A DNA stretch of 64,000 nucleotides from assembly GCF_020520425.1 (NCBI RefSeq), contig NC_079492.1, positions 140,496,361 through 140,560,360 on the forward strand, written 5' to 3'. The translations under genes and the position numbers were made by a program. Positions within the stretch are counted from its first letter, which is position 1. Every line of letters begins with the position of its first letter. The notes under the pieces were generated by a model that saw only the letters and a program-made list of their open reading frames with translations, searched no databases and had not been told where the DNA came from. This stretch comes from Spinacia oleracea. Its lineage: Eukaryota > Streptophyta > Magnoliopsida > Caryophyllales > Amaranthaceae. Shown piece by piece: positions 3,001 to 64,000 of this stretch.

Positions 3001-6000
3001 ATTTATCTGATATCACATTAATCTAATTTACTCTATTATTCTTCTACCATGAAATTGATCATTTGGTACTCCAGGTAACCTTGGCCCTGATGTCAAGATA
3101 TCAGAATTGATGAAGTGGAACAGCTTAGATGTACGTGTCTCCAAGTTTATTAAGCATCATCTTTACAAATCTGACAATGCTCTAATCTCTATGCCTCTTT
3201 ATAAGTGCAGAAAGCTCCTATGCAATTGCTGTTTAGCATGGTGGAAAGGGTCTTGGACGAAAGTTTAGAAAGAAAGAGCGGGGATGTACCTCATGTATGG
3301 ATTAGTTTGAACTGTATTTGCAAATTTAGCTTACTTTTGTTTTGTTTTGTTTTGTTTTGTTCCATGTTTGAATTAAAATTATAGTTTAATTTAACCTCTA
3401 ATGCTGTATTTATTGTGCTCAGCGTGTGGCGTGCCTTTTGAAAAGACTTGTACGAGAGATTGAGCGTCGGGTGTCAAATCAAGCAGATAAAATTAAAAAT
3501 GTAAACTACTTGAAATATGCAATCATTTTGATTAATACTATGTATCTATTTACTATTAGCCCCGTTTTTCATATTGCTCATGCTTGCAGCAAAACAATCT
3601 CTCCAAGGTTCGTGAAGGCAAGTATCAATCAAAAGTGAAAGCCCTTGAGACGCTTGCTGTCGGGGCTGCTGAAGAAAGCGATGTAATTTTGGTTGACTTA
3701 AGAATTCATGGGTTTTTACTAGTTCTTCCGTTCTTATTTAGTTGACACTGTTTGACTTTAGCACTATTCATACGCCCTCCTTTGACTGGATTTTGTTATT
3801 TTTGCATAAGGTAAAATGTAATCATGTGACATCTTGTTAAATTCGTCTTGATAAATAATTTCAAAATATCAACTTCTATTATTTTTCCTTTACATAATTA
3901 ATGATATTAGTGATAAAAATGTGCTTTGGCAAACTTGACTAAAGAAATGTGTCAACTAAATAAGAACGGGAAGGTATTTATTTAATACTGAATGACTGGT
4001 TTTCCTCTCTTCATTTATAGGTTGCTGTAAACCATCTTCGGCAGATAAAGGTGCACTCTTAATCTTTTCATTATTGCTTCTTGATGCTTCTTATCCACAC
4101 TTTTGGATATTTTTTGACTGTGTATTTTCACTTGTGCATGTAACTTCTTTCTGTCTCTAAAGGTATAGTTATCAATTTTTGTTTATTAATGATGTGAAGA
4201 TACAGAACTTATACGTCATTTATAAGACTTATTTTGTAAATCAAATTCCCTCTATCACGCCCCCTTCTATCATCTTGTCGAAGTCTTTAAGTAATAAAGC
4301 AATTATATTTTTGTTGCAATATGAATCTGCAATTAATTTGTCATACACAGTATTTCATAGTTCATGTGAAGGAATAGCTCAGACCTAGTCTTTTCCCTTT
4401 CTTTCTCTTTGCCTTGAGTTTTCCTTGCTTAATACCTTATCCTTCCCTTCAATTAAAAGAGGAAACCTGTTCTTAATTTGAAAGATCTTTCTGTTGCTAT
4501 ATTATGGTGGGCTAGAGTGTATTAAACTACACATCCTTCTATTTCCTCAACAATATAATTGATACACAATATCGTCGAAATTCCTCAACAATATAATTGA
4601 TACACAAACTCATCGAAGTTTATGACATCAACTTTTTCTTGCTTTCTTATTTTAGACGGAGAAAACAAAATTAGAAGAGAATAAGAAACATGGTGAGCAA
4701 GATATGGTTAAATTGATGAAAGAAAGGGATGAACGTGATGCTGAGATAAAAGCTCTCAAACAAGAGCTAGAGGTGGTTAAAATGTCAAATGAGAAGCACT
4801 GCTCACAACTGGAAACTGAAGCAAAGGAAGCAAGAGCAAAGTTTCAGGAGGAGATAATGGATCTTGAGTCTCTTCTACAAGTTTCAAAGAAAAAAGTGAA
4901 TGAACTGAAGGAAACCTTTGAACATGAGACTCAGAAATTGAAACATAGAGAGCTTCGTTACTCTTGCTTTGTAGATTCCCAATTTGTTGTTCTGAAGGTA
5001 TGATATTTTTGTGTTTTTCATTTTGATGCCCGTTTATACCTAGGTGCTATGTCACCGCACTCGGATACCCATATCAGACGGTACGTGTCCAAGTGTCACA
5101 CGGCTATTTTGTGAAAAAATTGCATTATTTTGGTCCAAAATAAGTGCTGGAGTGTCCATTACTCCGTACCCATGTCCAAGAGTGTAGAGAATCTGACATG
5201 GGTATTTGAGGTAAAGTGAAGAGTCCAGGTATCGTAGCCTAGGTGTTTGAATATAGATTTCCTGATTAGACACTATATTTGTGGTTTTGTGCAGGGACTT
5301 AGGATGGATTTAGATTCTGTAAAGAGAGAGCTTCTGAAGACGCAAGACTGTTATCCTCTTGAATTTCAATTTCTAGGTAAAGATGGTATTTGACAACTCT
5401 GGTTTCAATTCTTCCTAGTGTTACATTTTATTTTTTAAATTTCATTCACTGAACCATATCTTTTGCAGGCACAAAGCTCAAAGAACTTGTAGATGCTGCT
5501 GAGAACTACCACATGGTTCTTGCAGAAAATAGAAAATTATACAATGAGGTTCAGGATCTGAAAGGTACACTTGGTTAGCATTACTTTTCAAGCTTGGCCG
5601 TGTGTTTTGCTAGCTTATTCAATGCACTTGTTACTTTTGGTAGGAAATATTAGAGTATATTGCCGTATAAGGCCATTTCTTCCCGGGCAGAATGAGAAGC
5701 AGACGACCATAGAGTATATTGGTGAGAATGGGGAGCTTGTTGTCGTCAATCCCCTAAAACCAGGAAAAGACAGCCGCCGATTGTTTAAGTTCAACAAGGT
5801 CTTTGCTCCAGCAGCTAGTCAAGGTTTTTTACAGATTTCATTTTTTTTGGGCATCTTTTATGCATTTATTGGCTTGTGTTACTTATTTGAGCTAATGATT
5901 CATGGCTACAAATTTGGAAACTGCTTCGGCCATACAATAATGATGTCTCTTAATGACTTGGATTCAACATATTTCTTGGCAGAGGAGGTATTTATTGACA

Positions 6001-9000
6001 CCCAACCACTGATTCGATCTGTTCTTGATGGGTATAACGTATGCATTTTTGCCTATGGTCAAACTGGTTCAGGCAAGACTTATACTATGGTAGGTTTGAA
6101 TTATCTGTTTTGATGCAGTGCTTACCTAGATATTCTTGATGATTTTCAAAAGTTATTCCCCAATAATTTTCTTCTTTTTTCCGCTCTATCTAGACTGGAC
6201 CTGATATGACGTCAAAGAAGGATTGGGGAGTGAATTATCGAGCTCTGCATGATCTTTTCCAGATTTCACAAAATAGGAGAAGCTCCATCATGTATGAAAT
6301 TGGTGTCCAGATGGTTGAGATTTATAACGAGCAAGTCCGAGATTTGCTTACATGTGATGGTTCGCAGAAAAGATATCCTTCCCACTTCCTGTTCTTTTCT
6401 TAATTAGATTTTCTGACTTTTATCTCTCTAATTGACTCCTGCCAATTGTTTACAGCAAGCTCATTATGAGCTGTTTGATGATGGATTTAGATAGCTTCTT
6501 TTGTTTCTTTTAACTTTTGTCAGCTATTAGATGATGAATTCAGATAACTTCTTTCTTTTCTTTCAACTGTTGTCCTGCAAGTTTTTTTTGTTTGCATGTA
6601 AACCATCGCATTAGAATTTTACTTCCTTATAATAGTAAAAATATTAGTGGCTTCACTTGCTTTTAATTTGTATCCTCTCCACTTATCAACTAATAGTTGT
6701 TGCCACTTATCCTGCCTCAATATCAGGGATTTTTCCAAAAACTATTTACCAATAAATTTCACCTCAAGTTCCAAAAGGACATTCTATTCGTAAGAAGTAA
6801 TTAAGTCCTTATTTTGTTGCATGCTAACACGAGCCTTTATTTTTGTGCATTATGTTGATATACTTCCTCCATTCTTTTTTAGTTGACACATTTTTTTATC
6901 ACGTTTGCCAATGTAATATTTCAATCATTAATATCTTTAAATATCAATGGGTAAAAATTATAAAAAGCTGATATTATAAATCTATACAACGAGACGATTA
7001 TAACAATCATGACAATATTTTTTCTTAAGTATAAATCACAATTGATAGTCAAAGTAGATTATATGAATAGTGTCAAAAGTCAAACTTGAACTTGTGCTTC
7101 ATGTTATCAAGAGATATTTGTCATTGCTTTCACACTACTGGTATTGTTTCCTTTGACTTGCATACACTTGGGATTTGGAGTACTAGTCAACCTAATGGCT
7201 TGGCGGTCCCAGATGCGAGCATGCACCCAGTTAAGTCGACTAATGACGTGCTTGAATTGATGAACATTGGCTTCATGAACAGAGCTGTAGGCGCCACAGC
7301 GTTGAATGAAAGGAGTAGTCGATCTCACAGGTTGGTTTCTCAACTACTTCATTTTTGTACTTATGAAATCATTTTGTTGATTGTGCTTGTTGCTTTGTTA
7401 ACATTGAAGCCATTTTGCCAATTTTGCTTGTTTATTACACTGCAAAAAGTTACTGTTTAAATCAACCTTGTTAAATTTTCTATTCTGAAGTAAAACTTCC
7501 CGGAAACAAGACAAGGTGAAGGGCTTTGTTTCGACAATAAGTTTCAATGAATTCAGTAATAACATTTGACTGCAGATTTAAAGACCTAATAAATCCCTTT
7601 TACCCCACCCTCTTGTGTTGAACGTGTGAGGAGGCAGAGAAAGAGGCACTTATTTATTCACAATAAGCTTCTAAGAGAATAATAGTGTAAGCTCTGGTTA
7701 TGGGGCTCTGTTTAGAGACCATTTCTTTCTTACTTTGCTATCTGGAGGAATGAGGGCCAGGAAATGTTATGGTATTTTGTGGTTGTTGTGTTTGGAGATT
7801 AATTGTTAAATAAAATGATAGATTTTCGGTAATGAATACTTAATAGAAATTCCTTGTTGATTTCTCAATCTCTATTTCTTGTCATGCTTTGCGAGCCTTT
7901 ACAGTATTACTCGTGTATTATCGTAGTTGGGATTCTTTGCTCTCCTGTAATGCATCGGGGCTTATCCTTTTTTCTTATATATATGTGCATTGGATACTTT
8001 GTAGATTAAATTTTTTGTCTTACAAAAAAAAGTCTCAATTTAATGTCGCAGCATCCTCACTGTCCATGTCCGCGGCATGGATTTAAAGAGCAATTCTGTT
8101 TTGCGTGGTTGTCTTCACTTGGTGGACCTTGCAGGAAGTGAAAGAGTTGACCGCTCTGAAGCTACTGGAGATAGACTAAGGGAGGCCCAATATATCAACA
8201 GATCACTGTCTGCTCTTGGAGACGTAATCTTTGCGCTAGCTCAGAAGAATTCCCATGTGCCGTATAGAAATAGCAAACTCACTCAGGTTCTCCAGAGTTC
8301 TCTAGGTATTCGGCCGCTACTTAATCCTGTCATGTAATGGTTTTGCTTTTAATCATTATCATGGTGAATCATATAAATACTTGTGTTTCAGGTGGGCAAG
8401 CAAAGACATTAATGTTTGTGCAGCTTAACCCTGACGTGGAGTCTTACTCTGAAACTACCAGCACTCTTAAATTTGCTGAGAGGGTTTCTGGGGTAGAGTT
8501 GGGGGCGGCACGTAGTAACAAAGAGGGAAGAGATGTTAGGGAACTCATGGACCAGGTGTGTCTCTATGTTGTTTCTTCCTTCTGATCAATTCTTAAATCC
8601 TATAGAAAACTAATTCAGACGAGTTCTGATTTATGTCCCATGCATGTGCCTTGTGGATAGAAATATAACGTATTTTGCACAATTTTATTTTCTCATGATG
8701 GACTTGTGCTGGATTTTTTAATTTTTTGAGTGGCTATCATCTTCCGGACATGTGAAAAACAAAGTTTAATACTCCGAGTCATTATGTATTTATTAGTAGA
8801 TCAAATAGGAAGCTTGCTTCTCCATAGCACATTATATTGATTGGATAATACGACTGGTGTTGCGGACAAGATATATTGACTAGCTTTTCTTTGCATTTGT
8901 GAGAAATACTATGGTGTCCAAGCCAAAAGTTGTTAGATATGAGAATGCCAGATGTGAATAAGTGAATAACCCTATTCTGGCTTGGAAGTATTTAACATAG

Positions 9001-15841: not shown

Positions 15842-27850
<12,009 letters not shown>

Positions 27851-29663: not shown

Positions 29664-30385
29664 CAGCGCGTCTCCTGTGAGACCAGTCACACCATCAACT
29701 TGATGGTGTGACGAGCGCGAAACCAATAGCGTACCTCCCCTAAAACTATAAAAAAAAAGTAACAGACCTAAACTATAGAAGTAACATACATAAACTAAAA
29801 AAGTACCTCCTCTAAAATTATATATATAAAAAAAAAGTAACATGTCTAAACTATAGAAGTAACATACCTAAACTAAAAAAGTACCTCATCTAAAATTATT
29901 AAAAAAAAGTAACATGTCTAAACTATAGAAGTAACATACCTAAACTAAAAAAAATACCTCCTCTAAAATTATTAAAAAAAAAAGTAACATGTCTAAACTA
30001 TAGAAGTAACATAACTAAACTAAGAAGGTATCTCCCCTAAAACTACTCCGTATAAAAAAAAGTAACATGTATAAACTATAGAAGTAACATACATAAGCTA
30101 AAAAAAGTACTTCGTCTAAAATTATAAAAAAAAGTAACATGTCTAAACTATAGAAGTAACATACCTAAACTAAGAAGGTATCTCCCCTAAAATTACTCCG
30201 TATAAAAAAAGTAACATGTATAAACTATAGAAGTAACATACCTAAACTAAAAAAAGTATCTCCTCTAAAATTATATAAAAAAAGGTAACATGTCTAAACT
30301 ATAGAAGTAACATACCTAAATTCGCAAGTGTAAACTGGTCTCACCATCAGTTGATGGTGAGGACAGTCTCATATAAGAATTTGGG
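29664..30385. mobile_element. Hairpin-ended tandem-repeat element with 9-bp TSD
   Basis: ttaccgtta lies on both sides (29655-29663 and 30386-30394). Each end has a hairpin: tcacaccatcaa-c-ttgatggtgtga (29687-29711) and ctcaccatca-gt-tgatggtgag (30337-30358), the two being inverted relative to each other together with gagaccagt/actggtctc. Between them are about eight copies of a 60-80 bp unit (gaagtaacatacctaaacta, then agtacctcctctaaaatta and an A-run). Non-coding. The 9-bp duplication suggests Mutator-type mobilisation. Confidence 0.85.
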
Positions 30386-34607: not shown

Positions 34608-44541
<9,934 letters not shown>

Positions 44542-47080: not shown

Positions 47081-47184
47081 ATTCTAAAAACAAAGTATAT
47101 TTTATATACTTACTATAATCTATAATTCACAATTTGTCACAAACAAGAGAAAGAAACAAAATCTTATTTTTTGATATTTACTCT

Positions 47185-47697
47185 ATGTTCCCTATGGTAA
47201 CTGGGTTCATCAATTATGGTCAACAAACAATACGCGCGGCAAGGTACATTGGTCAAAGTTTTATGATTACCCTATCCCATGCTAACCGCTTACCTGTAAC
47301 TATTCAATATCCTTATGAAAAATTAATAACATCGGAGCGTTTTCGTGGTCGAATTCACTTTGAATTCGATAAATGCATTGCTTGTGAAGTATGTGTTCGT
47401 GCATGTCCTATAGATTTGCCCGTTGTTGATTGGAAATTGGAAACGGATATTCGAAAGAAACGGTTGCTTAATTACAGCATTGATTTCGGAATTTGTATAT
47501 TTTGTGGTAATTGTGTTGAGTATTGTCCAACCAATTGTTTATCAATGACTGAAGAATATGAGCTTTCTACTTATGATCGTCGCGAATTAAATTATAATCA
47601 AATTGCTCTGGGTCGTTTACCAATATCAATAACCGATGATTACACAATTCGAACAATTTTGAATTCACCTCAAACAAAAGAGAAAGCTTGCGATTGA
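47185..47697 (+). CDS. ndhI: NDH complex subunit I (plastid-derived nuclear copy)
   Basis: 170 aa, full length for the family. In plastids it is the peripheral-arm iron-sulphur subunit of the photosynthetic NDH complex (cyclic electron flow and chlororespiration). Two 4Fe-4S motifs are complete: [12 protein letters not shown] and [12 protein letters not shown]. The start is taken at [12 protein letters not shown] (47185), the plastid start, rather than the in-frame ATG at 47134. In the nucleus it lacks a recognisable promoter or transit peptide, so it is an open but presumably silent copy. Confidence 0.93.
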
Positions 47698-47981
47698 AGA
47701 CTAATTTTCACTTATTAAGGTTCTTTTTTTTAAGTTTAAATTCAAAAATTTTATTTGTATTTACAATAGGTGTTCGGTTTACTGTAATTATTTTAAATAA
47801 TTTTAGTTGAGAACTACCCTCTCAGATAAAAAAAGAATGGGATGGGTCCAATAAATTGACTTTACTTACATCAAGTCACACATTAGGATTTAACAATTAG
47901 CAACGCATAAACTTCTTTTTTCCTGTTCAAATCAATAAGATCATGAAACATTCCGATTTTTTATCTCTTATTTGACATATA

Positions 47982-48512
47982 ATGGATTTACCTGGACCAA
48001 TACATGATTTTCTTTTAGTCTTTCTGGGGCCGGGTCTTATATTAGGGGCTCTAGGAGTGGTATTATTTACCAATCCTATTTTTTCTGCCTTTTCATTGGG
48101 ATTGGTTCTTGTGTGTATATCTTTATTCTATATTCTAGCAAACTCCCACTTTGTAGCTTCTGCACAACTCCTTATTTATGTGGGAGCTATAAATGTATTA
48201 ATCATATTTTCTGTGATGTTCATGAGTGGTCCAGAATATGACAAAAAGTTTCAGCTGTGGACTGTTGGGGACGGGGTTACTTCATTGGTTTGTATAAGTC
48301 TTTTTGTTTCATTAATTAGTACTATTCTAAATACATCTTGGTATGGGATTATTTGGACTACAAAATCAAACCAGATTCTCGAACAAGATTTAATAAACGC
48401 TAGTCAACAAATTGGAATTCATTTATCAACCGATTTTTTTCTTCCATTTGAACTCATTTCAATAATTCTTTTAGTTTCTTTAATAGGTGCAATTGCTGTG
48501 GCTCGTCAATAA
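47982..48512 (+). CDS. ndhG: NDH complex subunit 6 (plastid-derived nuclear copy)
   Basis: 176 aa, full length, beginning [18 protein letters not shown] and ending GAIAVARQ. It is a hydrophobic membrane-arm subunit of plastid NDH with about five membrane segments. The frame is open throughout. It lies 284 bp after ndhI and 195 bp before ndhE, as expected for the plastid operon. No nuclear expression signals seen. Confidence 0.93.
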
Positions 48513-48707
48513 TAATATATAATTTTTAAAAAATCAAAATAAATTTTCTATTTTTTCATTCAATTCTATTTGAATTTATTTAGAAATTTTTAGTTCTATT
48601 TTTTTGTTCTTAATTTATTCTATTCTAACTTGTTATATTCTAGTCAATCAAAGCGGTTTAATTGTTGTTCATATTGAAATGAATCGAGATTGATAAGGAG
48701 TTGGTCA

Positions 48708-49013
48708 ATGATACTCGAGCATGTACTTGTTTTGAGTGCTTTTTTATTTTCTATCGGGATTTATGGATTAGTCACGAGTCGAAATTTAGTTCGCGCTCTT
48801 ATGTGCCTTGAACTTATATTGAATGCAGTTAATCTAAACTTTGTAACATTTTCTGATTTTTTTGATAGTCGCCAATTAAAGGGAAACATTTTCTCCATTT
48901 TTGTTATAGCCATTGCAGCCGCTGAAGCAGCTATTGGACCGGCTATTGTTTCTTCAATTTATCGTAACAGAAAATCCATTCGTATCAATCAATCGAATTT
49001 ATTGAATAAATAG
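48708..49013 (+). CDS. ndhE: NDH complex subunit 4L (plastid-derived nuclear copy)
   Basis: 101 aa, full length. Start chosen at [14 protein letters not shown] (48708), the plastid start, not the in-frame ATG at 48690. Three membrane segments; ends SNLLNK. Open frame; presumed not functional in the nucleus. Confidence 0.93.
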
Positions 49014-49136: not shown

Positions 49137-49139
<3 letters not shown>

Positions 49140-49890
49140 GAAGGCTCTCGTGAGAACACCTCCTTTATGTGAGAACACAATCCTATGTGAGAATAGATCT
49201 TGACCCTTGAATCATCTCTAATCTAACAGCCTGAAATGAAGGATTATTAATGGCAATTTGGTAAATTCTTTTAAGATATATTCAGCCCATAAAATTCAGT
49301 TTTCACGTAATTAGTTTCTCTCTCTAATCTCTGCTTTCTCTCTCTGCTTTCTCTCTCTTTTTTCACGTAAATTCTTTTATGCTGCCGCCATTACAACACT
49401 TTAATCACGGTCCAATTCATCTCCAAATTCGCTTCAGAATTCAATTCAATTCTCGAATACATTCATCTACTTGATTATTTCAAGGTATTTTTTATCAATT
49501 TTCGCAATTTTGATTTGTGTTTTTTGCTTGATAATTTCCCAATTTCTGACCTAGTTTTGATTATTTATTCCAATTCCATTAGTATTGAATTGAAATTATT
49601 AATTGTTGATTATCGAATTCTTTATTTGCTGAATTTCGTGAGCTGCTTTTATAATTTGAATTTGTGAGTTGTTTTTTATTACCGAATTGCACTCATATTT
49701 GGTGAGTTGTTTTTGTTTTGTGTTTGATATTCTGATTTGTTTTTTATTTTGATTTTTGATTTTCATTTGTTATATATTTTAGATTTTTGATTATCTATTT
49801 GTTCCTTTCAATTTGTGTTTTTAATTTATGTGTTCAAATTTGTATTCAATCATGTAGTTTTTGATTTACAGATCAGTATTCTTTCGAGCA

Positions 49891-52800
49891 ATGGCATCAG
49901 AATTTCATCATAGTTCGTCCTCATCATTGACGGAATCAAGTGAGTTTTCTTATTATTGTGTCTGATTTGTTAACGTTCTGAATAATCGCTATAAATGTTC
50001 TGCATTTGTAATCCAATGTTCTATGTACATATTATACATGTTCTGAATTGTTTTTTAATTCTTTTTTTGATCATGTTGTGAATAATGTTCACCTCTAATG
50101 AACTGCAAGTTGTAAATTGTTTTTGATGATGTGAATGATTGCATTATATCTTCTGCATAGTCGTTTAAATTGTTTTGAGTAATACTTGCTTCAAGGGTTT
50201 TGTATAGTTCTCTATTTTCCTGTCACATTCTTTCTGATGTTCTGAATTATTCTTACATTGTTCTCCACTTTTAACCCAATGTTCTATGTAAACTTTATAC
50301 ATGTTCTGAATTATTTTTTTGTTATTTTTTTCTAGATTCTGTTGTGGATAATGAACAATATGCAAGTTGTTCTAATTCAAATGTGGTTGTTACTCCTGAA
50401 GTAATTCCTATATTAAGTCCAGGGTGAACGAGAGAATGGATTCCATGTTGTTCTGATGAGTTAAAACCTGTTGTAGGGATGAAATTTATGAGTGTCGAAG
50501 AGGGTATTTCATTTTATAAAGCATATTCAAAAGCTGCTGGTTTTGTGATGAGGAAATCTACTGCTACAAAAAGGAAGGCACTAGACGTTATTGCTTTTCA
50601 GTATTGTTTATGCAACAAGGCTGGTTTCAAAGAAAAAGCAATAGTTAAGGTTGGAGGCATGCCAAATGTTAAAAAAGGGGAAGGTAATGAAGATAAAGTA
50701 CCTATACCTCGAAGAAGGCTAGTTACTCGTGTTGGTTGCAAGGCTCGGATGGTCATGAAGTATAAAAATGAAGGTTTTTATGTGGTGACTGAATTCCGAG
50801 AGCCACATGTTCATCCTCTTTACACCCCGGGTTGTCTAAAATTTCAGAAAGCGGGTAGGAAAATGAATATTCTTCATAAGAAGATGATTATTGATAATTC
50901 GAAGGTGAACATTGGTCCGGTTAAGACTTTTAGATTGATGAAGGAGTTAGTTGGATCGTATGATAACGTTGGTGCATCCAAGCAAGATTTCAAAAAATTT
51001 CATAGAGATTTGAAGGCTTACATTGAAGGATCGGATGCCCAAATGTTTGTGAATAACTTTCAGAACAAGAAGTTGTTATGGAGTGCATTTTTCTTTGACT
51101 ATGAGGTGGATGAAGACGAGCAACTTTGTAAAGCTTTTTGGGCATATCCTATATGTAGAAAGAATTATGAACTCTTTGGTGATATGGTTTCTTTTGACAC
51201 CACATTTCAAACAAATAGGTAATTTCTTGTCATGTTCTAAATTCATCTAAATTTTGTTCTACATAATATTCATGATGTTCTAAGTTAAAATCTGCATGTT
51301 TTAAACATTACTCATCAAGTTCTGAATGCATGGTTATCTTGTTCTAATAACTGTACATATGTTCTAAATATTATTCAGCATGTTCTATATAACTATTCAT
51401 ATGTTCTGAACATTATACTGAATGTTCTGAAATTTGTTTTTAGGTATAATATGATATTTGGCCCATTTACTGGAGTTGATCACCACAAGAAGTGTGTTAC
51501 TTTTGGTGTTGCTTTAATAGCCCATGAGGACATCGTGTCTTTTGAGTGGGTTTTTAGAACTTTCCTCAAGGCAATGGGAGGTAATGAGCCAGCTTGTTTG
51601 ATTACGGATGAAGATCCGGCAATGAAAATAGCTATTCCTAAAGTGTTTCAGACCGCTGAGCATAGGTTTTGTATGTGGCATATAATGAAAAAAATGCCTG
51701 AGAAAGTCGGCCGTCAGATTACGCAAGATACCCTGTTTCTTAATAAAATTTGCAAATGTGTTTGGAGTGAAGAGATTGAGCCAACAGAATTTGAAGAGAA
51801 ATGGGGAAAGGTTCTTGCTGAGTTCAAGCTTCAAGACCATGAGTGGTTGAAGCAGTTGTATGAGAAGCGTCAAATGTGGATCCCAGCATACTTTAGAGAT
51901 TCGTTTCTATGTGGTATCATGAGGACTACATCAAGGTCAGAGAGTGAGAACAATTTTTATACAAAGTTTACCAATCCCCATCTCACTCTAGTAGAGTTTT
52001 ACATGAGATTTGAGAGTGCATTGGATGCTCAAAGACATACTCAAGGTCAATTTGACAATGATTCTAAACACAAGCATCCAGAATGTAAGACTTCCTTTGC
52101 ATTAGAGAAACATGCTTCTAAAATCTACACTGTTTCAGTCTTTTATGATTTTCAAGAGGAGCTCGAGATTGGTTGCTTTCACTGTGGACTTGAGGAGTAC
52201 AAGAAAGAAAATGGGTTTGAAATCTTTACCATTAGAGAAGGATGTAGAATAAGAAAGTTCGATGTTAGTTTTAACCCGGCTAACCTAGATAGTAAGTGTA
52301 TGTGCAAGATGTTTGAGAGGTTAGGGATTCCTTGTAGGCACATGGTTTGGGTGTGGAAGGCAAAGATGATTGAGTATATTCCTGATGCTTATGTGCTAAA
52401 TAGGTGGACTAGTTTGGCAACTAAAACGCCAATTTTTGATTTAGAAGGAAATATCTTGGAGGCATGTGTTGACTTTGTTGATTGTAAAAGAATGTTAAAT
52501 GAGTTATGGTCAGAAATTCACACATGTGTGAGTTTGGCTCAGGGTAATGAAGAAGATCTTACTGATCTTGTGAAGAATTTAAAAGGTTTAAGGTTAAACT
52601 TGGAAGCTAAGAAGAGTTCTAACAATCATGAAAACAATGGTTCTCCTAGCAAAGCAACAGACATCGAGCTACTGATTGGAGCTACCCTTCCTACTGAAAT
52701 TGTGGTTAAGCCGCCTAAAATTTCAAAGAACAAAGGCACGGGGGTTCATGTTCCAGGTACAGGTAGTGACAAACGATTGAAAGGTGACAAGGAAAAGGCA

Positions 52801-52908
52801 ATTGAGCAAAGCCAAAAGAAGAAAAGGTTATGTAGAGGTTGTGGAGAGCTTGGTTACCATGATATCCGGAATTGCCCACATAAAGTGAAAGAAAATTGTA
52901 AGTTATAA
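49891..52908 (+). pseudogene. FAR1/MULE-type transposase with one premature stop
   Basis: Exons 49891-49939, 50336-51218 and 51444-52908 (799 codons), plus a 5' UTR intron (about 49485-49871). Order: FAR1-type DNA-binding region (from about 50480), MULE catalytic domain with D in SFDTTF, D in LITDEDPAMK and E in SRSESENNFY, a CMWH motif, a SWIM finger (CMCKMFERLGIPCRHM) and a C-terminal CCHC knuckle (CRGCGELGYHDIRNC). TGA at 50425-50427 (codon 47) interrupts the frame; the next Met, at 50479, would keep every recognised domain, so activity after internal initiation cannot be excluded. Introns are rich in GTTCTAA words. Confidence 0.9.
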
Positions 52909-53454
52909 GTTTTTATAACATGGTTTGGATGTAAAAAATTCTATTACCTTGATGTTCTGAATAAATTATCATATATTCTAATTAATATACATGATGTTCT
53001 AAACTTATCACTATATGTTTTAGGGAATTCTGCATTCTGTTCTACACAATATTCATATTGTTCTAACCAATCTATATCATGTACTACACTTAAAACTGCA
53101 TGTTCCAGGAAACTGTGCACTATGTTCTACACAATATACATAATGTTCTAAACTATAGAATTATAATGTTTTAATTTCAATGATGCTTTTTATTCATTAT
53201 TTAGTTCCCTTGACACAATTTGTTTTGTTTTTTTTTTCCAGAATTGTCATTAAAAGCTTCTCGCCAAAGAATACACAATTTCATCATTCACCATCTCCAC
53301 ATAGATCCTCTCACTTTTTGAAGTGTTATTTTTTTATAGTTTATTTTTTTTGTGTTACGTTTTTGGACATTGTCATATTTTCCATGAACAATGTATATCT
53401 ATATAGTTTTTTCATGGCTCTGAAAAATATACTTTATGTTCCTTTTGCTTAACT

Positions 53455-53610
53455 ATTGTTTTCAACAATTAAAAGGTATCCCCATGCATCAGCGATATTG
53501 TTGATATTATTATTTTCGCCCGCATGACTTCTCATTTTAGCTTATCGTTGTACAAAAGTTCACTTCATTCATCTACAATACAAACACTAAACCAAATTTT
53601 AAGAAATAAA
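53455..53610 (-). pseudogene. Duplicated fragment of the Ulp1-gene exon
   Basis: Closely resembles 55612-55770 (the exon at 55564-55741 plus its intron edge): shared aaaaggtatccccatgcatc, attttcgcccgca and ttatcgttgtacaaaag words. A short piece present in the parent exon (ttctcttgtgattttgttt region) is missing. It lies just 3' of the transposase and is not in any open gene. Confidence 0.8.
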
Positions 53611-54216
53611 GTTAAAAGTTCGATGTTATGAGTAAGTAAAGTAATTGTTCTAATTCAACTAAGTAAATGTTCTGAATTCAAAGAGACAAAGTTCTTAATT
53701 TAAAAAGTTCTTAGTTCTTAAAAAAGTTAAAAGTTAGTGCACAAAATGTAAATGCTCTAAGTCAACTTACCATACGTTTTGAAATAACATAGTATTTGTT
53801 CCGAATCACGTTCAACAAGAAAGGATTACAAATTATTGGAATATATTTTATTTGTTTAATAGACTTGTTTCTATTTGCATTAATTAAATCAAGGATAACA
53901 ACAAATTATGAAACAAAGTCATTGCATTGAATATTTAGTTTGACAATACTAAATATCGATAATACTAAATTTTGATAATGCTAATTCTCACATTTTTCAA
54001 CTAATTATGCTAATACTCATAGTATTTATAATACTAACAAGAAATTCACATAAATGTTCTAACCACTTCAGAAATATGTTCTAACAAGAAAGCCAAAAAT
54101 TCTAAGCATTTAAGCTACATCTTCAACACAACCTATTTATAACAAGTACGAAATTTGATGCTACATGTAAGCTACATGTTTCTAGCATTGATCTACAACT
54201 AGCTATTACAATTTCC
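53611..54216. repeat. Spacer between the convergent MULE genes, GTTCTAA-rich
   Basis: No gene. Holds scattered GTTCTAA/GTTCTGA words on the plus strand and AT-rich filler, downstream of both convergent genes. Confidence 0.6.
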
Positions 54217-57200
54217 TCAAATTTTGTTTTCTAGTGCCCATGTTCTTGATTTTGAAATCATTGTATGATGTTCATCATTCTCTTTGTGCGCCAATAACTT
54301 TCCACAATATTCAACTCTCAATCTCTTCATTTGCTCAAACTGCAATGACATCAATTTGAAGGTTAGAACAAAAAAATAGATGTTAAATACACTTTGTTTT
54401 AAGCATTTAATCCAATTGTTCTAATAACTAACCCTATATGTTCTAACAAATTCAATAATATGTTCTAAATATTTTCTGAACTCATTTAATATAAGTTCTA
54501 ACAATCAATACACTTTGTTCTAAGCATTTCATCTAATTGTACTAATAATTAATCCTACATGTTCTAACCTGTTACGGTATATGTTCTAACAAGTTGAACA
54601 TGTTCTGTATCAACAAGTATATGTTCTAACTAGTTAAGGAACATGTTCTGTATAACCAAGTATATGTTTTGAGTGTATTCCAATGTTCTAAACTCATGAG
54701 GCTTAGCATTAAATTTAAATTTTAAACACTTACGTTGTCTTTTTCCAGTCCCGGATTCCATTCCTTTGCACTCTCTCCATAATAAGTTTCCATGTGCTTC
54801 AGCAAAAACACTCCACAATCATCATAATTGGCGTTGCTTTTCCATTTCATATTCAGGTTTCTTGTTTTGAAATCAGTTACAGAACTTTTGTTTCCTACAT
54901 TGTGTCTTGCAAAATAATATTCCGCGAAGCCTTTCAACTGTGAAATTGTCAAAGTGAGAAACATTATTTTTTCTGAAGTTTAGGAATATGTTCTGAATTT
55001 GTAGCACAATGTTCTAAATATTCTTTCTATATGTTCTGAATTTGGAAAATTTTGTTCTGACAATAATTAGTTAGTTAAAATCTATGTCATCACTTTAACA
55101 CAGATTTAGATAGAAAGCGTACCATATTTCTTGGTTCATTCTTGTATTTTCCCAAATACGTCATAGGGGGTGTAATGCATTGGTTGTCAATCACGTCCAA
55201 ACTTCCATTCATGAAGTTAATGCACAATAGATAGTAATGACCACCATTAACTATCGGAAAAAACACCTGAAAATTTAATGTTTAGAGTTATGTTGCTGTT
55301 TGTGAAAGTAGTATAATATTACGTCAACACTGTCACACATAATTAGAATCATACCAATTGAACTCTTTGCAAGCTTGTTACTTTAGCATGTGCTAGTTCT
55401 TCATCCATTCTTTTAAACAAAGCAGGATATCTTTCACTGAACTTGATACTCGAAAGAAAGTACTTATCTTTGCATAAGATGAGCTGAAAATGTTTAAATA
55501 TTTGTCAAAAAAAAGTGCTACTCGAATTTTAATTTAGACATCATTTTATATGTATTAACTTACATATGGCTTTGTGCTGAAGAAAAATCTACTTTCTGTT
55601 CCTACACCCCGCCTTCTGTTTTCAACATTTAAAAGGTATGCCCATGCATCAGCTATATTGTTGAGCATATGATTTTCGCCCGCAAGACTTTTCATTTCTT
55701 CTCTTGTGATTTTGTTTAGCTTATCGTTGTACAAAAGCTCACTTCATTCAACAAAAACACAAATATTATATCAATTTTTGAGAAATAAAATTAAAAGTTA
55801 GATGTTCTGAATCAGGAAAGTAATTGTTCTAATTCAACTAGGTAAATGTTTTGAATTCACAAAGATAAAGTTCTGAATTCAAAAACTATGGAATGTACAA
55901 AATGTGAATGTTCTGACTTAACTTAGTAATTGTTCTAATTCAACTAGGTAAATGTTCTGAATTCACAAAGATAAAGTTCTGACTTAACATAGTAATTGTT
56001 CTAATTCAACTAGGTAAATGTTCTGAATTCACAAAGATAAAGTTCTGACTTCACACATATAAAGTTCTGAATTCACAAAGATAAACTTCTGAATTCAAAT
56101 AATATATAAAATCTTAATAATGAAAGTGAAAATTTATAACTTACTCAATTGGTCCTTCAGCAAATGCATAATCAGCCATCCTTCTTTTAGCAACATTTAC
56201 TCTCTTGAACGCTGCATCATGTTTGACCATGAAAGGCGATCTTAAATATTGCGGGAGCTTCTCAATGCATCTTTGACTCTTTCTACTTTCATCATTTCCC
56301 CTGTACAAATTATCACACAAATATATACTAAAATCAAAGTTCTAAATCATAACACTTTGTGTTCTAAAAAACATTAAGCATTCGAATCTTTAAACAATTC
56401 TGAAAATAATAATTGTTCTAATCCATCAAAATACCAAAATACAATTATTTCATTGTTTCACGGTTTTTCCAAAATAGGAATTACAATAAATTATGTGTAA
56501 TTACCCCTCCTGCTCATCTATTTTCTGTTTTGGCTCCTCATATTTTGGCGAACCAGCTTGCTTTCCATCAATATCTAAACCAGTTGGTGTTTTAGTAGTT
56601 TCTGTTCCATTTGCTGATCATTGTTACCCAAAGTAGCCTCTGTTGGAACAACATCAGACGCTCTTTCCTTAGGGTCATCATCTTTACCCGAACTTGGCTT
56701 GTTTGTTGCATTTTCTGTGTCTGTTTGTTCTTGGCTTTTGACATTGTTTGCTGCATTTTCCAAGGATTTTTGAACTCCAAGTGCCAGATCCTAGTCCAAA
56801 TCCAAATCCATATTTTCAAACGATTCAGCACTGTCGAGAGAAATCACTTCTGTTGGCTTTAATGCAGATGAAGATGGAATATCACTAAGGATCACTGGTG
56901 ATTCTGATTCTGGAACAAAGATGTGTGTCGTTGTTGTAGCAAATGGGAGGGGTTGCTCTTCTTCTTCATCGGTTTGGCTTTGGGTCAACAATTTGAAGCC
57001 TAATATATCAGATTCATCTCTTGCCTTCTTTTTCTTTTTTGTTGGACGTGGCTTGACAAATTTCTTACTCATACCTATTCTCTCTTGGTAATCTTCCCAT
57101 GCCTTAGCCATTACCACGTCCAATTCCTCAATGAATCCAGGTTCATCAAACATTTGTTTGTCCTGGCTAAGAACTGAAGGACTCTTGACTTTTTCTTGTG

Positions 57201-57387
57201 CTTCGGGCAGAATTGGCTCAGTTGGCTTATTTGTGTACTTGCTCCAAATATTATCGACCAGCCTTTTCAGTTCCTCTGCTGTATCGCCTTCTTTGAAAAG
57301 GTCAGATGCTTTATCTACCATAACATACATCTCGTTGATATTTGAAGCCAGTGCCTTAGCCAAATCCCCAAATTTGTCCAGAAAGCC

Positions 57388-57948
57388 CTTCATTCAAGTA
57401 AAACAGATTCATCAATTAGATATATGTTCTAAGAATTAAGTCTATTTGTTCTAAATATTCTATAATATGTTCTAAGGAATGTATTCAATGTTCGGAACTG
57501 TACTAAAACTATTTTTTGAATTCATTTAATATAAGTTCCAACAACCAATACACTTTGTTCTAAGTATTTCATCTAATTGTTCTAATAATTAAACCTACAT
57601 GTTCTAACCTGTTATTGTATATGTTCTAACTAGTTAAGTAATATGTTGTAAGTATTTAATCCAAATGTTCTATTAATTACTCCTATATGTTCTAACATGT
57701 TACTGTATATGTTCTAAATTACCAATTACCATCAATCAAGGGTGAGAAAAATGGAAAATACAAAATCTCATAGACGGCAATGCATTCTAGAATCATAACC
57801 AGAGACTATCTTGTTCTATGGTAAAACAATTATGTTGGAATCACCAAACAATATGTTCTAACTAGTTAAGTAATATGTTCTGAATATTCTAACCATGTGT
57901 ACTAACTTGCATGGTAAGTATTTAAATTCTATGTTTCCAGTTACTTAC
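57388..57948 (-). repeat. Ulp1-gene intron packed with GTTCTAA words
   Basis: About 15 or more copies of gttctaa/gttctga, often as atatgttctaac, spaced 15-50 bp, on the plus strand, that is antisense to this gene. Best example of the motif discussed in the findings. Confidence 0.85.
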
Positions 57949-59925
57949 CATAATGTTGTAGGATGAAGTTGATGAGCCTGCTTGCAAGTGAGGATCTTTC
58001 TGGTATATGTGTTCTTCAACTTGTTCTTCTAGTAATCCTTCATAAGCTATTCTTTTGAGCACAACCCCCTTTCCAAAGCCCCTCTTGTTTTCAATCTTCA
58101 TTCTTTCTTCTATCCTCTCACTGTTCCAGACTGAAAGGAGAGGGAACTCTCTTGGTTGCACAATCTTCTCCCTTTGCAACCGGTCAAAATATGTAATCTG
58201 TATAGAGTTTGAATATTTATAAATATTTTGCTTCAAGTAATTAAGACATAAGCAATTACAAAACTCTTTGCTAAAAGCAGAGCGACTTTCAAAACAAAGA
58301 AGGGCAACTTTTAATCCTAATCTGTAATAATCAAGCAAGTTTAAGACTTTAAGATCAAACTAGCAAATTCATAGGCTATTTCAATTAAGTAAATGTTTCA
58401 TTGTAGATTGATATTCTACCAATTAAAATTATATGTTCTAACAACTTTATCAATATGTTCTAACAACTTAATCAATATGTTCTAACAAAATTATTTAACA
58501 TGTTCTAACCTATTGAGGAATATGTTCTGCAACTTAAGATATATATTCTAAGCAAAAAAAGAATATGTTCTAAACATTTAAGTATGTGTTCTAACCAGTT
58601 AACATAATTGTTCTATACTTTTAAACTATATGTTATGGGCAGTGTACATACCAGTAAGAAAGGCAATGGTCCAGTGAAATAAGCATTTCCTCCTTTCCAT
58701 TTTTCAGCAGTTATCTTCATATTTACAAAAGTGTAATGGCACCAGTCTAATTCATGAATTTTCTGTATGTCCATGCAGCTATACAGAAACTTGTATGCCA
58801 CTTCCGGTCTTGATGTTGAGCATATACAAGTATTCACTACACACACCACGAAATGCCATAAAAATTCATCACACAAGTCTTTTTCACATAACTCATTCAA
58901 CCTATCTAATACTTTTGACAGGTATGGACTTCCACTTTCCATGTTAAAGAATCCCCTCCATGTTCTCAGAAATGAAACCCATTCTTCATCTTCTTCCTTC
59001 TTCGGTTCCACTATTTTCCTTCCTCCTATTGGAAGCCCGTACACAAGGTGTATGTCTTTCAACTGAATATCTATTTCTTCTTTATTATCCATCACCAAAT
59101 TAACTCTGTTGGCGTCTAAGCTTGTTACAAGTTCAGCAGAAAACGCAGACTTATGGGCACCAATATCTAAATCAAGGAAGGCACCAAAGCCTATTTTCCT
59201 AATGGCAGCTCTGTGTTGTCTCGGAATTTTAGGAATAAGTGCCATGAACCAATTTGGTGGTATTCTTTGGACCAAAAGTCTAGCCTTTTTCTTCTCCACC
59301 GGTTTTGATTTGTTATCCACTTCTACACAGTCTTTTGATCCCGAGTGCACAACAACTGCAGACTTGTGCTTCTTGACATCTCTAACAACAATTTCATTCC
59401 CTTGTTTCCTTTTTGCAATATGTTTCCTTCTTTTGTCATTCTTCTGATTCACTTCCTCTTGTTCTTTGTTTACATTGGCATTGGTTTCTTCATTGATGAT
59501 AGGTTCAGTTTCTGCATTGGTTTGAGTTTCGGTTTCCCTGCAACACATGAAACAAATTAACTTAATGTTATAAATATGTTTATATGTTCTAACAATTGAA
59601 TTTATATGTTCTAACAAGTGAATCTATATGTTCTGTACGTTATTCTTATATGTTCTAATCAGTTAAGCTAAATGTTCTAAGCAGTTAAGCTATATGTTCT
59701 AGCACAGTGAGAGGTGATGTTTAGAATTTATTTTGGATTAAACCTTGAAAACTACTTAAGTCATAGAACTACAAAACAAAACAACAATATAGGAACATCG
59801 CAACATGAACACAGATTATAACTATTATTAGAATCTTAAAAACCATTTTGGGAATGGGTATGGTACAAATTATATATAAAAAACATAGAAAAGTTTAGTA
59901 GGTCCCAGCTTATTGCATATTGATA

Positions 59926-60678
59926 CACATGAATACCAATCTTTGGACAAAAATCAGATACATTCAACATACATATTATTGATTCAAGTCTAATTAATCT
60001 ACTTGTTTTCTATTTGAGAGATTATGTTTTGTCTTAAACCTGACAGTCTCTTTCCGTCCTTTAGTGAGATTAGACTCTTGTTCTTGGTTTCCATTATCAT
60101 TGCTTTTTTCATTGGTGTTAACTTCAGTTTCTTGATTGGTGTGATCTTCGGGATCCCTGCAATATATGAAACAAAATTAGTTCTTTTTTAAATAGGTATA
60201 AATATTTGAACAATTGAATTTATATGTTCTAATAAGTGAACCTATATGTTCTGTAAATTGTTCCATATGTTCTAATCAATTAAGCTAGGTGTTCTAATAA
60301 GTCTTTCAACCTAGTACGGGATTGTCATTTTGTTGTCATGTCACATGAATACCAATCTTTGGACAAAAATTAGATACATTCAACATACACGTTATTGATT
60401 TCAAGTCTAATTAATCTACCAGTTTTCTATTTGAGAGATTATGTTTTGTCTTAAACCTGACAGTCTCTTTCCGTCCTTGAGTGAGATCAGACTCTTGTTC
60501 TTGGTTTCCATTATCATTGCTTTTTTCATTGGTGTTAACTTCAGTTTCTTGATTGGTGTGATGTTCGGGATCCCTGCAACATATGAAACAAAATTAGTTC
60601 TTTTTTAAATAGGTATAAATATTTTAACAATTGAATTTATATGTTCTAATAAGTGACCCTATATGTTCTGTAAATTGA
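59926..60678 (-). repeat. Tandem duplication carrying one Ulp1 exon twice
   Basis: Segments 59926-60261 and 60342-60678 are near-identical, offset 416-417 bp. Each contains a 117-nt exon (39 codons, the same phase at both ends), so the duplication keeps the frame and doubles an acidic Glu/Asn-rich segment. Confidence 0.9.
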
Positions 60679-62200
60679 TTTGGGAATCTTCTGCACAAAT
60701 CAATCTTCTGCACAAATCAATCTCCCATGGTACTATAGCAAAGTGGTAAATCCTGTTTGCTAACCCCATGGTACTATATGCTCTCTTTCCAAATAGTTGT
60801 CAATCAACATTGTTTCAGACAATTGGACATGCATTTAACCTTGTCTATTATCAAGGTTACCAATTAACATACATCATCAACAAGAAAATTCTCAGCCAAT
60901 TCACTTCAACATAAAACTACTTTACATTCCTCAAACTTATCATTTTGTATCCGCTACAGTTATCCCATGCTTAGCAAGAAAATTCATTTCCCTTGACAGA
61001 AATTCTCTAAAATATAGCATCCTCATATACCTATTCATTTTTTGTAAGACACTAGCAACATCATGGTTAGTGTAGTAGTCCCTGACTGCCTGATACCAGC
61101 TTGACAAAGACTGAGGAGATGTAGTAGGTTTTGACTCCTTTTGAGAGAAGAGATGAATTTATGAATATATGCGAGACCAAGGTTAGAATAGGGAAATGGA
61201 GTGAATATTAAAAAGGAATAAGCTGAAAGAGAGACAAGAAAATAGGAGATAGAACAACCATTTTGAAGGGAAAAGACAAAAAAATTGGGCAAAGACAGGG
61301 ACCGAGTTGAGAAAATAGACGTCGAATAGCTTAAAATAAAATACTAATCACACACCTTGCAACAAGGCCAAAATTCAGCAACACAAGGAATGTACCTCCC
61401 AAAAACAATACTAAAATAGAAAATATGATGACTTAATACTCCTCAGCAACACAAAAACTTCAAAATCAAAGGTTATTTTTCATGAATCGAGATAGCTAAA
61501 TAGGCCACAAGAAAGTGGGTAGAGGACCATAGCCAAGTTTATATTCATTTATCAAATTTGCAGCTTCTTCTTCAAATCTGGAAAACTGATATCCTAGTAA
61601 TCCTACACATTATTCAATCGGGGATAACATCTCAATCTTATTACTATCAATCCTTGATGAACAAAGGAACAAAGAAGCACCTACAGTCCTTCATACACAG
61701 CCAGTCACAACTAGTAACATGCCTTCGTATAAATGGCTCACTCGCAACAAATTCGGCTCTATAAAACTAATGAAAATTGACTCTAATATTGCAACTAACA
61801 AATGGAGTGCCAAATATATTGGTAAGACTCTAATAATACCCCTAGGCTCAGCCTCTCCGCTCTATTTTGAGTCTTTCAACAATGCAGTATCATCACCGCC
61901 ATAACAAAACCTCAAATCCATCATTATAACTACCGGGGAATCAACACCAAGCTTTTCTGATTAACAATGTTATAAATAAGTCAAGTTTGGAGCAATTAAC
62001 TCCAACAAACAACAATATCAAAAGGAAAACTATGGCAATTAAACCACCCCATTATTCCTAAACATTGGATGATAGGAGCAATTAGAAAGCATTTGGAAAC
62101 ATTATGTAGATGAAAACATATAAATCAAGAAGTAAAACTTATATAGAAAAACAGTATTACTCAATATTATCATCAAACAAACATGATATATCTTCAACTA
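60679..62200. other. Long Ulp1-gene intron segment without the GTTCTAA motif
   Basis: Part of the 1.7-kb intron 60574-62302. Unlike the other MULE introns it has almost none of the repeated motif and a different texture (for example ttctgcacaaatcaatc twice at 60689-60722). It may be a captured or inserted segment. No coding content recognised. Confidence 0.5.
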
Positions 62201-63157
62201 GAACAAGAAGCACCCAATTTCTATGATGTTCTACACAATGATCTATGATGTTCTACATTCTTAACCTTCATGTTCTAAAGTATTTAGAGTATAAAGTATT
62301 ACTCTAAATTGTTCATGATGTCGTTCAGAAGTGATTGCGGGACAACTGGCTCCGTTTCTTTGGCGCGTTCATTCTTATTCCTTCTGTTTAAAATTTCAAA
62401 TCAAAAATATCAAAAAATGTTGAAAATATCTTAAAATTCTCAAAATAATTCAAAAAATTACAAATTAATTTCTTTTAAAAAATACTGAAAATTCATTAAA
62501 AAATTTCAGAATAATATAGGATGGTGTTAATAAAAATTCATAAAAAATATCAACATCGCTAGAAACATACAAAAATTCGCAGACTAAAAATTACAAAAAT
62601 AATTTCGAAAATTACGAAAAAAATTACAAAAATTACGGAATTAATAAATAAAATTCGCTACAATTAAAGCACCGAATTCTTACTCTTCAGTATCGACTGG
62701 ATTTGTTGCTTGTTTGTCGTGTTTGTGTTTGCTGAAAATCGAAATTTAACAAAAATTATCTTCAATTAATGTATATATACTACGAACGAAGTTCGAAATT
62801 AGGTTACAAATTCGCTTACCTTCGTCGTTCGTATTGGTTTTGTACTCCAGTCATCTTCAATTGAAAAAATTAGGTTAAAATTAGAAAAAATTGTAGAAGG
62901 AGAGAAGAAATGTAGAACTATTGAACTCGAATTTACCTTAAATCTGCAATACACCGGCGGCGAAGGACGTTGATCGGCCGTTTTTGGAGCTGCGATGGCG
63001 GTTTTCGCGAGAGGAGAGAGAAAATCGTGAGGGAGAACAGAGAGAGTCTCGAACGGGAGAGAGAAAGAAGAGGAAAGGTTTTAGAGAGAGAAAGTGGGTG
63101 GGGTTTAGTGATAGAGACGTGGCTTTTGATGGGGAAGGTGGATGGGTTTGCTCACAT

Positions 63158-63385
63158 TTAATCCTAGCCATTAGATTGAATCTAATCCTACGGATTAGAT
63201 TCATTCTCATATAAAGTAGTATACTCACATAGGGACCTATTTTCACAGGATCTCTTCCCTATATATATATATATATATATATAGGGGAGGGATCCGGTGA
63301 AAATAGGTCCCTATGTGAGTATACTAGTATATATGAGAATGAATCTAATCCGTAGGATTAGATTCAATCTAAGGGCTAGGATTAA
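63158..63385. repeat. Large inverted repeat of two MULE ends around a TA repeat
   Basis: The right end of the 14-kb element and the left end of the next one are about 100-bp inverted copies (shared gtgaaaataggtccctatgt, then gaatctaatccgtaggatta and gattcaatct) on each side of 24 bp of at repeats (63260-63283). Confidence 0.92.
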
Positions 63386-64000
63386 AACCAATTAATGGCA
63401 ATATGTAAATAACCTTCCAACTACTAACATAATAAAACCCACGCCCCTTTCTCTCTCAAACTAATCTCAGTATTCACGCTCTCTCTCTACAAACGATTAT
63501 CCTCCACCCTCTCTCTCACCATTTTCTCTCTCCTCCAGAAACAACCATTAAAGCTCTAGAGAACGGCGATCAAGCTCCAAAATCGCCGATTACTTACTGA
63601 TTTAAGGTAAAGTCTCGCTTCATTGTTCTATATTTCTTCTCTTCTACTACAATTACCGCTAATTTTAACATAATTTTGTCAGTTGAAGATGAACGAAGGT
63701 GAATATTCAACAAATCAACCTGGAAAAAAAATACGAACGAAGAAGGTAAATGAAATACACAAAATTCAAACTATTTTCCTTGTTTTTAAACATTATTTTA
63801 GTTAATTTGTGATAAGTTTTGATTGTAAGGTAAAAATATAGAAAATTTGTAAGTATTTGAGTAGATTGAATGTTCTGATTGTAGTATTTGATGTTCTATT
63901 TGTTGTTTTATTTTTTCTGAATTTAGAATCAGTTTGTTCTGGATTTTTTTTGATCGATTTCTGAATCCAGAATCAGTTTGTTCTGAACTTTTGTGATTAA
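63284..64000 (+). mobile_element. Start of a second, related MULE (runs off the window)
   Basis: TIR ggggagggatccggtgaaaa, then a CT-rich 5' UTR, a UTR intron (donor after gatttaag, about 63607; acceptor cag at 63680-63682) and a first coding exon at 63689-63745 beginning MNEGEYSTNQ. This matches the layout at the right end of the first element in mirror image, so its Ulp1-type gene reads rightwards. GTTCTG words resume at 63871. Confidence 0.75.
63689..63745 (+). CDS. First exon of a Ulp1-type gene in the second MULE (partial)
   Basis: 19 codons, MNEGEYSTNQPGKKIRTKK, followed by the gtaaat donor. The context (ttgaagATG just after a cag acceptor) matches the start of the minus-strand Ulp1 gene at 62854. 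The function of the encoded protein is inferred only from this homology; the rest lies outside the window. Confidence 0.5.

Follow-up and report, generated by a model that had tools for sequence, protein, structure and literature searches.

Word arrays in the non-coding DNA of a Ulp1-carrying Mutator-like transposon of spinach as candidate docking sites of a VANC-like protein

The DNA analyzed here (the window) is a stretch of 64,000 nucleotides from Spinacia oleracea (assembly GCF_020520425.1, contig NC_079492.1, positions 140,496,361 to 140,560,360 of the forward strand), and positions are those of the window unless stated otherwise. At 49137..63263 (plus strand) it contains a Ulp1-carrying Mutator-like element (MULE), the window copy of a family that we call F1, the ends of which were matched to a second copy and to the element's own other end. 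Here, we found that GTTCTRA sites in the non-coding DNA of this element are arranged in degenerate tandem arrays with a period of 21-22 bp, the word itself being preserved. We consider it probable that these arrays are docking sites for an anti-silencing protein encoded by the element (VC, the product of its second gene), in the style of the VANC proteins of Arabidopsis.

Between positions 49137 and 63259, GTTCTA was counted 65 times on the plus strand and 6 times on the minus strand, and together with GTTCTG (29 and 2) this amounts to 94 versus 8 copies. The corresponding numbers were 53 and 2 for GTTCTAA, 22 and 1 for GTTCTGA, and 12 and 0 for ATATGTTCTAAC. Over the entire element (49137-63263), 75 GTTCTRA sites are located on the transposase strand and 3 on the opposite one (binomial p ~5e-19), and 72 of the 75 fall outside the predicted exons, which occupy 5583 of 14127 bp (depletion p ~8e-13); both p-values assume independent sites, and tandem copies are non-independent. 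Introns hold most of the 75 sites (51 in VC and 11 in the transposase gene); the spacer has 8, a further 2 lie upstream of VC and 3 are exonic. A first-pass annotation had estimated about 100 copies of gttcta/gttctg, nearly all on the plus strand with a scarce reverse complement, in introns and spacers of both genes and with few in exons, and our counts bear out this description. It had also suggested a count by strand and by exon, intron and spacer against a background, and here GTTCTRA exceeded every model. When the element itself served to train a third-order Markov model, the runs averaged 15.6 plus-strand sites (maximum 28 in 200 runs) as compared with the 75 observed. When an order-3 model was trained on window positions 1-48900, the mean was 2.1 (maximum 5), and dinucleotide shuffles gave a mean of 5.2 on both strands (maximum 12, n = 100). 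These Markov and shuffle controls rule out a composition artefact as source of the excess.

The distance between successive GTTCTRA sites is exactly 22 bp in 28 of 74 cases and 20-23 bp in 35 of 74, and the distances between all pairs of sites peak at 22, 44, 66, 88, 110 and 132 bp. Tandem Repeats Finder (TRF) detected many 21-22-bp arrays in the window. When the non-coding sites were aligned, ATGTTCTRA was shared and the linker of about 13 bp in between was mostly divergent. The spacing had originally been taken as irregular and the motif as no simple tandem repeat; this description has to be revised, and the part that differs is mainly the linker. All arrays are oriented along the plus strand. 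Transposase intron 1 carries 4 sites (49975..50309), intron 2 an array of 7 (51234..51430, TRF and count) and the intergenic spacer 8 sites (52954..54084). In the VC gene, TRF and count agree on arrays in the 3'-most intron (54418..54691, 9 sites) and in the introns at 57426..57883 (11 sites), 58435..58594 (22-bp array, 6 sites) and 59586..59680 (22-bp array, 4 sites). Other VC introns contain a 21-22-bp array of 4 sites (54990..55060), a 22/66-bp array of 11 sites, 8 of them of the GTTCTGA type (55804..56070), and 3 sites at 56339..56421. Four more sites are situated among or just upstream of the repeated VC 5' exons (60226..60649) and a lone site is found at 62272.

The element involves two genes. 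The VANA-like transposase gene (49891..52908, plus strand) has predicted exons at 49891-49939, 50336-51218 and 51444-52908, and its product matches the Pfam domains FAR1 (5.2e-17), MULE (2.5e-21) and SWIM (5.2e-6); CCHC was recognized by eye. The VANC-like gene VC (54217..60573, minus strand) is described by a model of 11 predicted exons without 5' end. Its layout comprises repeated N-terminal exons, a PMD-like domain (58652-59537), a variable middle part and a Ulp1/C48 protease (54217-56300), and the exon phases are consistent inside the N-terminal block and inside the C-terminal block. The spliced C-terminus (310 amino acids) matched Peptidase_C48 with an E-value of 5e-8 (33.5 bits, cut-off 20.7). 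Searching the PDB with the Ulp1 part retrieved weak SENP7 matches alone (E 0.35 and 0.42), and the PMD-like exon gave 0 matches at E up to 10. Among the predicted genes of the F1 element there was no VANB-type third gene, with no search aimed at VANB. At 59997-60593, two near-identical VC N-terminal exons are arranged in tandem together with a third diverged one, and a second, decayed VC exon piece (58% identity) lies in the spacer at 53410-53538. The element is bounded by terminal inverted repeats that are degenerate and about 100 bp long. It is inserted in a (TA)n tract, inside which a target duplication (9 bp would be expected of a VANDAL-type element) is unreadable.

To define how the motif behaves in other copies, the genome (894,210,420 bases, 242 contigs) was searched with the MULE-SWIM exon. 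At least 91 matches were obtained, and since 87 of 1778 candidates were scored, the numbers from this search are lower bounds. Among the matches listed, 17 were long (>440 residues) and 95-100% identical, window copy included. The motif follows the transposase strand in 19 of 19 F1-family loci including the window copy, as judged on 3 kb of flanks each, and 8 of these are located on the chromosome minus strand. At one locus (L021) the motif count was 21 versus 12, with an inverted partial copy alongside. The first-pass annotation had also considered a signal linked to directional replication or repair, and we reject this reading because the orientation tracks the element in all 19 loci, on both chromosome strands. 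Genome-wide, ATATGTTCTAAC occurs 527 times in forward and 551 times in reverse orientation, as compared with 50 and 64 for the reversed word as control. The first 100 places listed, all on contig C1, include 10 clusters with at least two matches, and each of the 10 has a single orientation. Gaps below 100 bp, again among the matches listed, most frequently measured 22 bp (16 of 29), followed by 44 (6), 88 (3) and 66 (2), and by 21 and 40 bp. One 4-kb cluster (C1:49840500-49844500) contains 24 versus 2 sites and no transposase or VC match inside those 4 kb, and thus motif-bearing remnants or non-autonomous relatives probably exist.

We next compared a further F1 copy and nine relatives over ten long stretches, five of which were extended by their adjoining parts; in this set, lineages F2, F3 and F5 are represented by one long copy each and F4 by four. 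In F2, which shares 73% identity with F1 in the MULE part and 40-57% in the VC parts, the F1 word recurs at 21 bp. F3 (MULE part 49%) carries GCAGRTACA / CAGRTAC, mostly GCAGATACA, at 22 bp and in 23 versus 0 orientation. TTTACWTTT (GTTTACTTTT) at 21 bp is the word of F4 (44-49%), and F5 (47-54%) contains GCTCATTT palindromes at about 31 and 62 bp. Compared with 100 shuffles, the counts of these words in their own lineages were 23 (maximum 8) for F3, 26 (maximum 7) for F4 and 65 (maximum 4) for F5. GTTCTRA was not raised versus shuffles in these three lineages (1, 6 and 2 sites), and neither were their words in F1 (2, 1 and 0). The best 7-mer of any kind exceeded the shuffles in F1, F2 and F5, and recurrences at 20-23 bp exceeded them in F1, F2, F3 and F4. 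The least expected point is that the 21-22-bp register is retained in four of the five lineages while the word changes. Such a word-per-lineage pattern is what a coevolution of protein and target would predict.

In F2 and F5, and in F3 for the Ulp1 part alone, a VC homologue lies next to the transposase in divergent orientation. For two additional relatives, L042 and L043, 12.95 kb each were compared with VC and gave no match, and no 7-mer exceeded the shuffles. L042 carries small arrays, with three CAGRTAC sites before the transposase (3 versus 2 overall) and 24 recurrences at 20-23 bp (maximum 8), and L043 has small arrays with periods of 18 and 28 bp; either element may be broken. The rule that arrays occur only where VC is found fits F1, F2, F3 and F5 and was abandoned, as F4 has arrays without convincing VC and L042 and L043 have arrays without a VC match; the link between arrays and VC is suggestive. 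Next to the F3 copy or within it, L049 contains an open frame of 1114 codons (1529-4873) that by eye belongs to a different type of DNA transposon.

The motif had been reported as having no described equivalent, but the anti-silencing system of Arabidopsis VANDAL elements is such an equivalent. VANC21 binds YAGTATTAY in these elements (Hosaka 2017, PMC5735166) and the targets of VANC6 are AGTTGTCC or AGTTGTAC. According to the same paper, these words form tandem repeats in introns and intergenic DNA, for VANC21 at high density and in the same orientation. The words vary by family and their number varies between copies (PMC5735166; Sasaki 2023, PMC10398659), and VANA is described in both papers as far more conserved than VANC. 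Some VANDAL VANC genes carry Ulp1 and are then called KIU (Kaonashi), and Ulp1 MULEs have been reported in melon, grapevine and rice (PMC13317346). This review, citing Sasaki 2022 (PMC9016345), states that KIU-carrying VANDALs recognize non-coding motifs; across eudicots, it adds, conservation of the Ulp1 domain is strong. Our literature search retrieved no description of the F1-F5 words or of this host, and Sasaki 2022 may hold some.

As far as these sources describe VANDAL21/VANC21 and VANDAL6/VANC6, the F1 element resembles them in pairing a MULE transposase with a second protein that is less conserved, in its short words arrayed tandemly in introns and spacers, in having related families with different words and near copies with different array length, and in the two variants of each word (C/T type in Arabidopsis, A/G type in F1). 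The tandem N-terminal exons of VC resemble the tandem peptide motifs of VANC variable regions (PMC5735166), and with KIU the element has in common that its second gene encodes a Ulp1 domain. In contrast, the word of F1 is ATGTTCTRA rather than YAGTATTAY or AGTTGTCC/AC, and the second protein has Ulp1 and a binding role that we infer from anatomy. The 21-22-bp register is a further difference, as a word search of the main text of PMC5735166 for a periodicity gave no match. Two features go beyond what these sources describe, namely the register shared by four of the five lineages and the existence of lineages in which the word is of mixed orientation or palindromic. We set the F1 element beside VANDAL by its apparently VANC-like anatomy (an element-coded protein plus a private word) rather than by clade.

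According to the mechanism that we favor, F1 would be a Ulp1-carrying Mutator-like transposon, the non-coding DNA of which is packed with arrays of the recognition word ATGTTCTRA. VC, with its PMD-like domain and Ulp1, would bind this word as VANC21 and VANC6 bind their own words in Arabidopsis VANDALs. Where VC is densely bound, introns and spacers would lose their DNA methylation and, by spreading, so would the whole element, and the rest of the genome would be spared from VC-driven methylation loss. The arrays would lengthen, shorten and switch word through tandem duplication, and VC would change alongside. Both the binding of ATGTTCTRA by VC and the removal of methylation are suggested by analogy. 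The first-pass proposals of a spread binding site or a silencing feature thus pointed in the right direction, but VC is a likelier binder than either the FAR1/SWIM transposase or some host factor, and anti-silencing would be the likely outcome. More tentatively, several MULE lineages may each use a private word that a lineage-specific and mostly Ulp1-tailed protein reads, the 21-22-bp register (about two turns of the helix) being common to them. If so, VANC-like proteins would load cooperatively along the DNA in a one-sided array, geometry rather than the word would be conserved, and orientation would be relevant inside a single array at most (F2 block flips) or be irrelevant (palindromic F5).

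A number of observations weigh against the mechanism that we favor. The transposase of the window copy has an in-frame stop in exon 2 (of 16 further loci tried, 3 could not be read and the other 13 all lack this stop), and VC exon 56505-57387 shows in-frame stops and a frame change, which may reflect an unmodelled intron or decay. In the N-terminal domain of VC, PMD was matched in F1 at E 0.005-0.008, which is below the PMD cut-off, the VC exons of F2 and F5 gave no PMD match in Pfam, and Pfam gave no match in VC to DUF1985, the domain that typifies VANC. A structure model of the PMD-like exon (AlphaFold, three-row alignment) had a mean predicted local distance difference test score of 39.6 and was unusable. 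The VANC21 signal takes in terminal regions, whereas the 754 bp 5' of the F1 transposase ATG contain 0 GTTCTRA sites. For F4, VC matches were limited to single exons (E 0.003-0.009) that were out of order, and the joined Ulp1 query gave none. Three of the lineages stand on single copies, the lineage words were picked after inspection, and the best 7-mer of any kind was not in excess in F3 (19, shuffle maximum 23) and F4 (24, maximum 27). In one of two control stretches of the window, 20-23-bp recurrences reached 52 as compared with a shuffle maximum of 15; this stretch includes part of another 22-bp-period array at 29729-30320 (AAGTAACATGTCTAAACTATAG, TRF).

The orientation data belong to the same side of the balance. 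F2 has 28 versus 51 sites in blocks of both orientations, the four F4 copies gave 18 versus 8, 15 versus 8, 12 versus 3 and 8 versus 2, and the palindromic F5 word was counted 35 versus 30. A related element adjoins F1 on the right (63280..64000, running past the window end), and 107 bp of its terminus match the right end of F1 at 94% identity. It had been noted as also carrying the motif, and GTTCTRA is indeed present there (2 versus 0 inside the window), but over 63280-66640 the count is 12 versus 8 with blocks in both orientations, and the strand bias does not apply. Thus, strand bias holds for the close family and not for the distant relatives F2 and F5, and a bias common to all relatives was not supported by the data for F2, F4, F5 and this neighbor.

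The most serious competing explanation is that of neutral minisatellites, in which 22-bp repeats arise by replication slippage in AT-rich non-coding DNA and spread as one array is copied into another, and the strand bias is a by-product of tandem growth without any binding function. Two close copies, the window copy and F1b (99% identical in the MULE part), illustrate array expansion, since the array at 55804..56070 is about 318 bp longer in F1b and another differs by a 22-bp indel. Adjacent units also tend to share the A or G variant of the word (p 0.014 in the window copy and 0.0002 in F1b), which was not clear in F3 (p 0.18). Moreover, the 22-bp array at 29729-30320 has no transposase of the F1 kind nearby, the single place of such a transposase within the window being 50428-52905. 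On the other hand, ATGTTCTRA is kept with differing linkers in about ten separate stretches, across two genes and the spacer and in one orientation. Between the two copies, the motif carries about half the substitutions of the linker (9/511 versus 48/1374, p 0.05), which is weak; the coding parts gave 48/5493 and the remaining non-coding DNA, including a poorly aligned stretch at about 60.3-62.2 kb, 672/5869. Different words occur in three lineages, and nearly the same period is found in three of four further lineages. Altogether, we consider this explanation unlikely.

The remaining alternatives involve other readers of the word. MULE transposases bind DNA, and Pfam names the FAR1 match a DNA-binding domain, so that sites for the element's own FAR1/SWIM transposase might be spread throughout its body. 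However, MULE transposases are known to have their sites in the terminal inverted repeats. In F1, the 754 bp preceding the ATG are site-free and the densest arrays lie in VC introns. In addition, the words of F3-F5 differ despite 44-54% identity in the MULE part, which is insufficient alone to exclude this reading, and overall it appears very improbable to us. Still less credible is a feature at the RNA level. TTCTAAC and TTCTGAC are similar to the plant branch point, and the 21-22-nt period equals the length of small interfering RNAs (siRNAs), so that intronic branch-point-like words (CTRAY) or siRNA phasing might be considered. However, 51 of the 75 sites are antisense in the introns of the minus-strand gene VC, others are located in the spacer, and the F3 word is unlike a branch point. 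We rejected an array of branch points on the grounds that most sites run antisense to the intron holding them. Finally, the arrays might be the target of a host DNA-binding protein, for instance one that recruits silencing to the element, and in Arabidopsis an overlap is reported between the targets of RNA-directed DNA methylation and those of VANC proteins, VANC21 being the least clear case (PMC10398659). Selection on the element would be expected to remove rather than to amplify such sites, and lineage-specific words would require several host proteins, which makes this scenario highly doubtful.

Outside the F1 element, the window contains a plastid-derived insert directly to its left (47119-49013) with ndhG (Pfam Oxidored_q3 1.2e-32) and, by eye, ndhI-like and ndhE-like frames. 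Two tandem subtilase-like genes (24545-27850 and 40489-44541) and a kinesin-like frame (5562-6113) were named by eye from their translations.

If VC indeed reads the arrays of its own element, the strategy of anti-silencing by word arrays would exist far from the Brassicaceae, with four different words in one species. The coevolution of protein and target would then be testable on natural pairs of word and protein by simple binding assays, and 21-22 bp would be suggested as a geometric rule for sequence-addressed demethylation.

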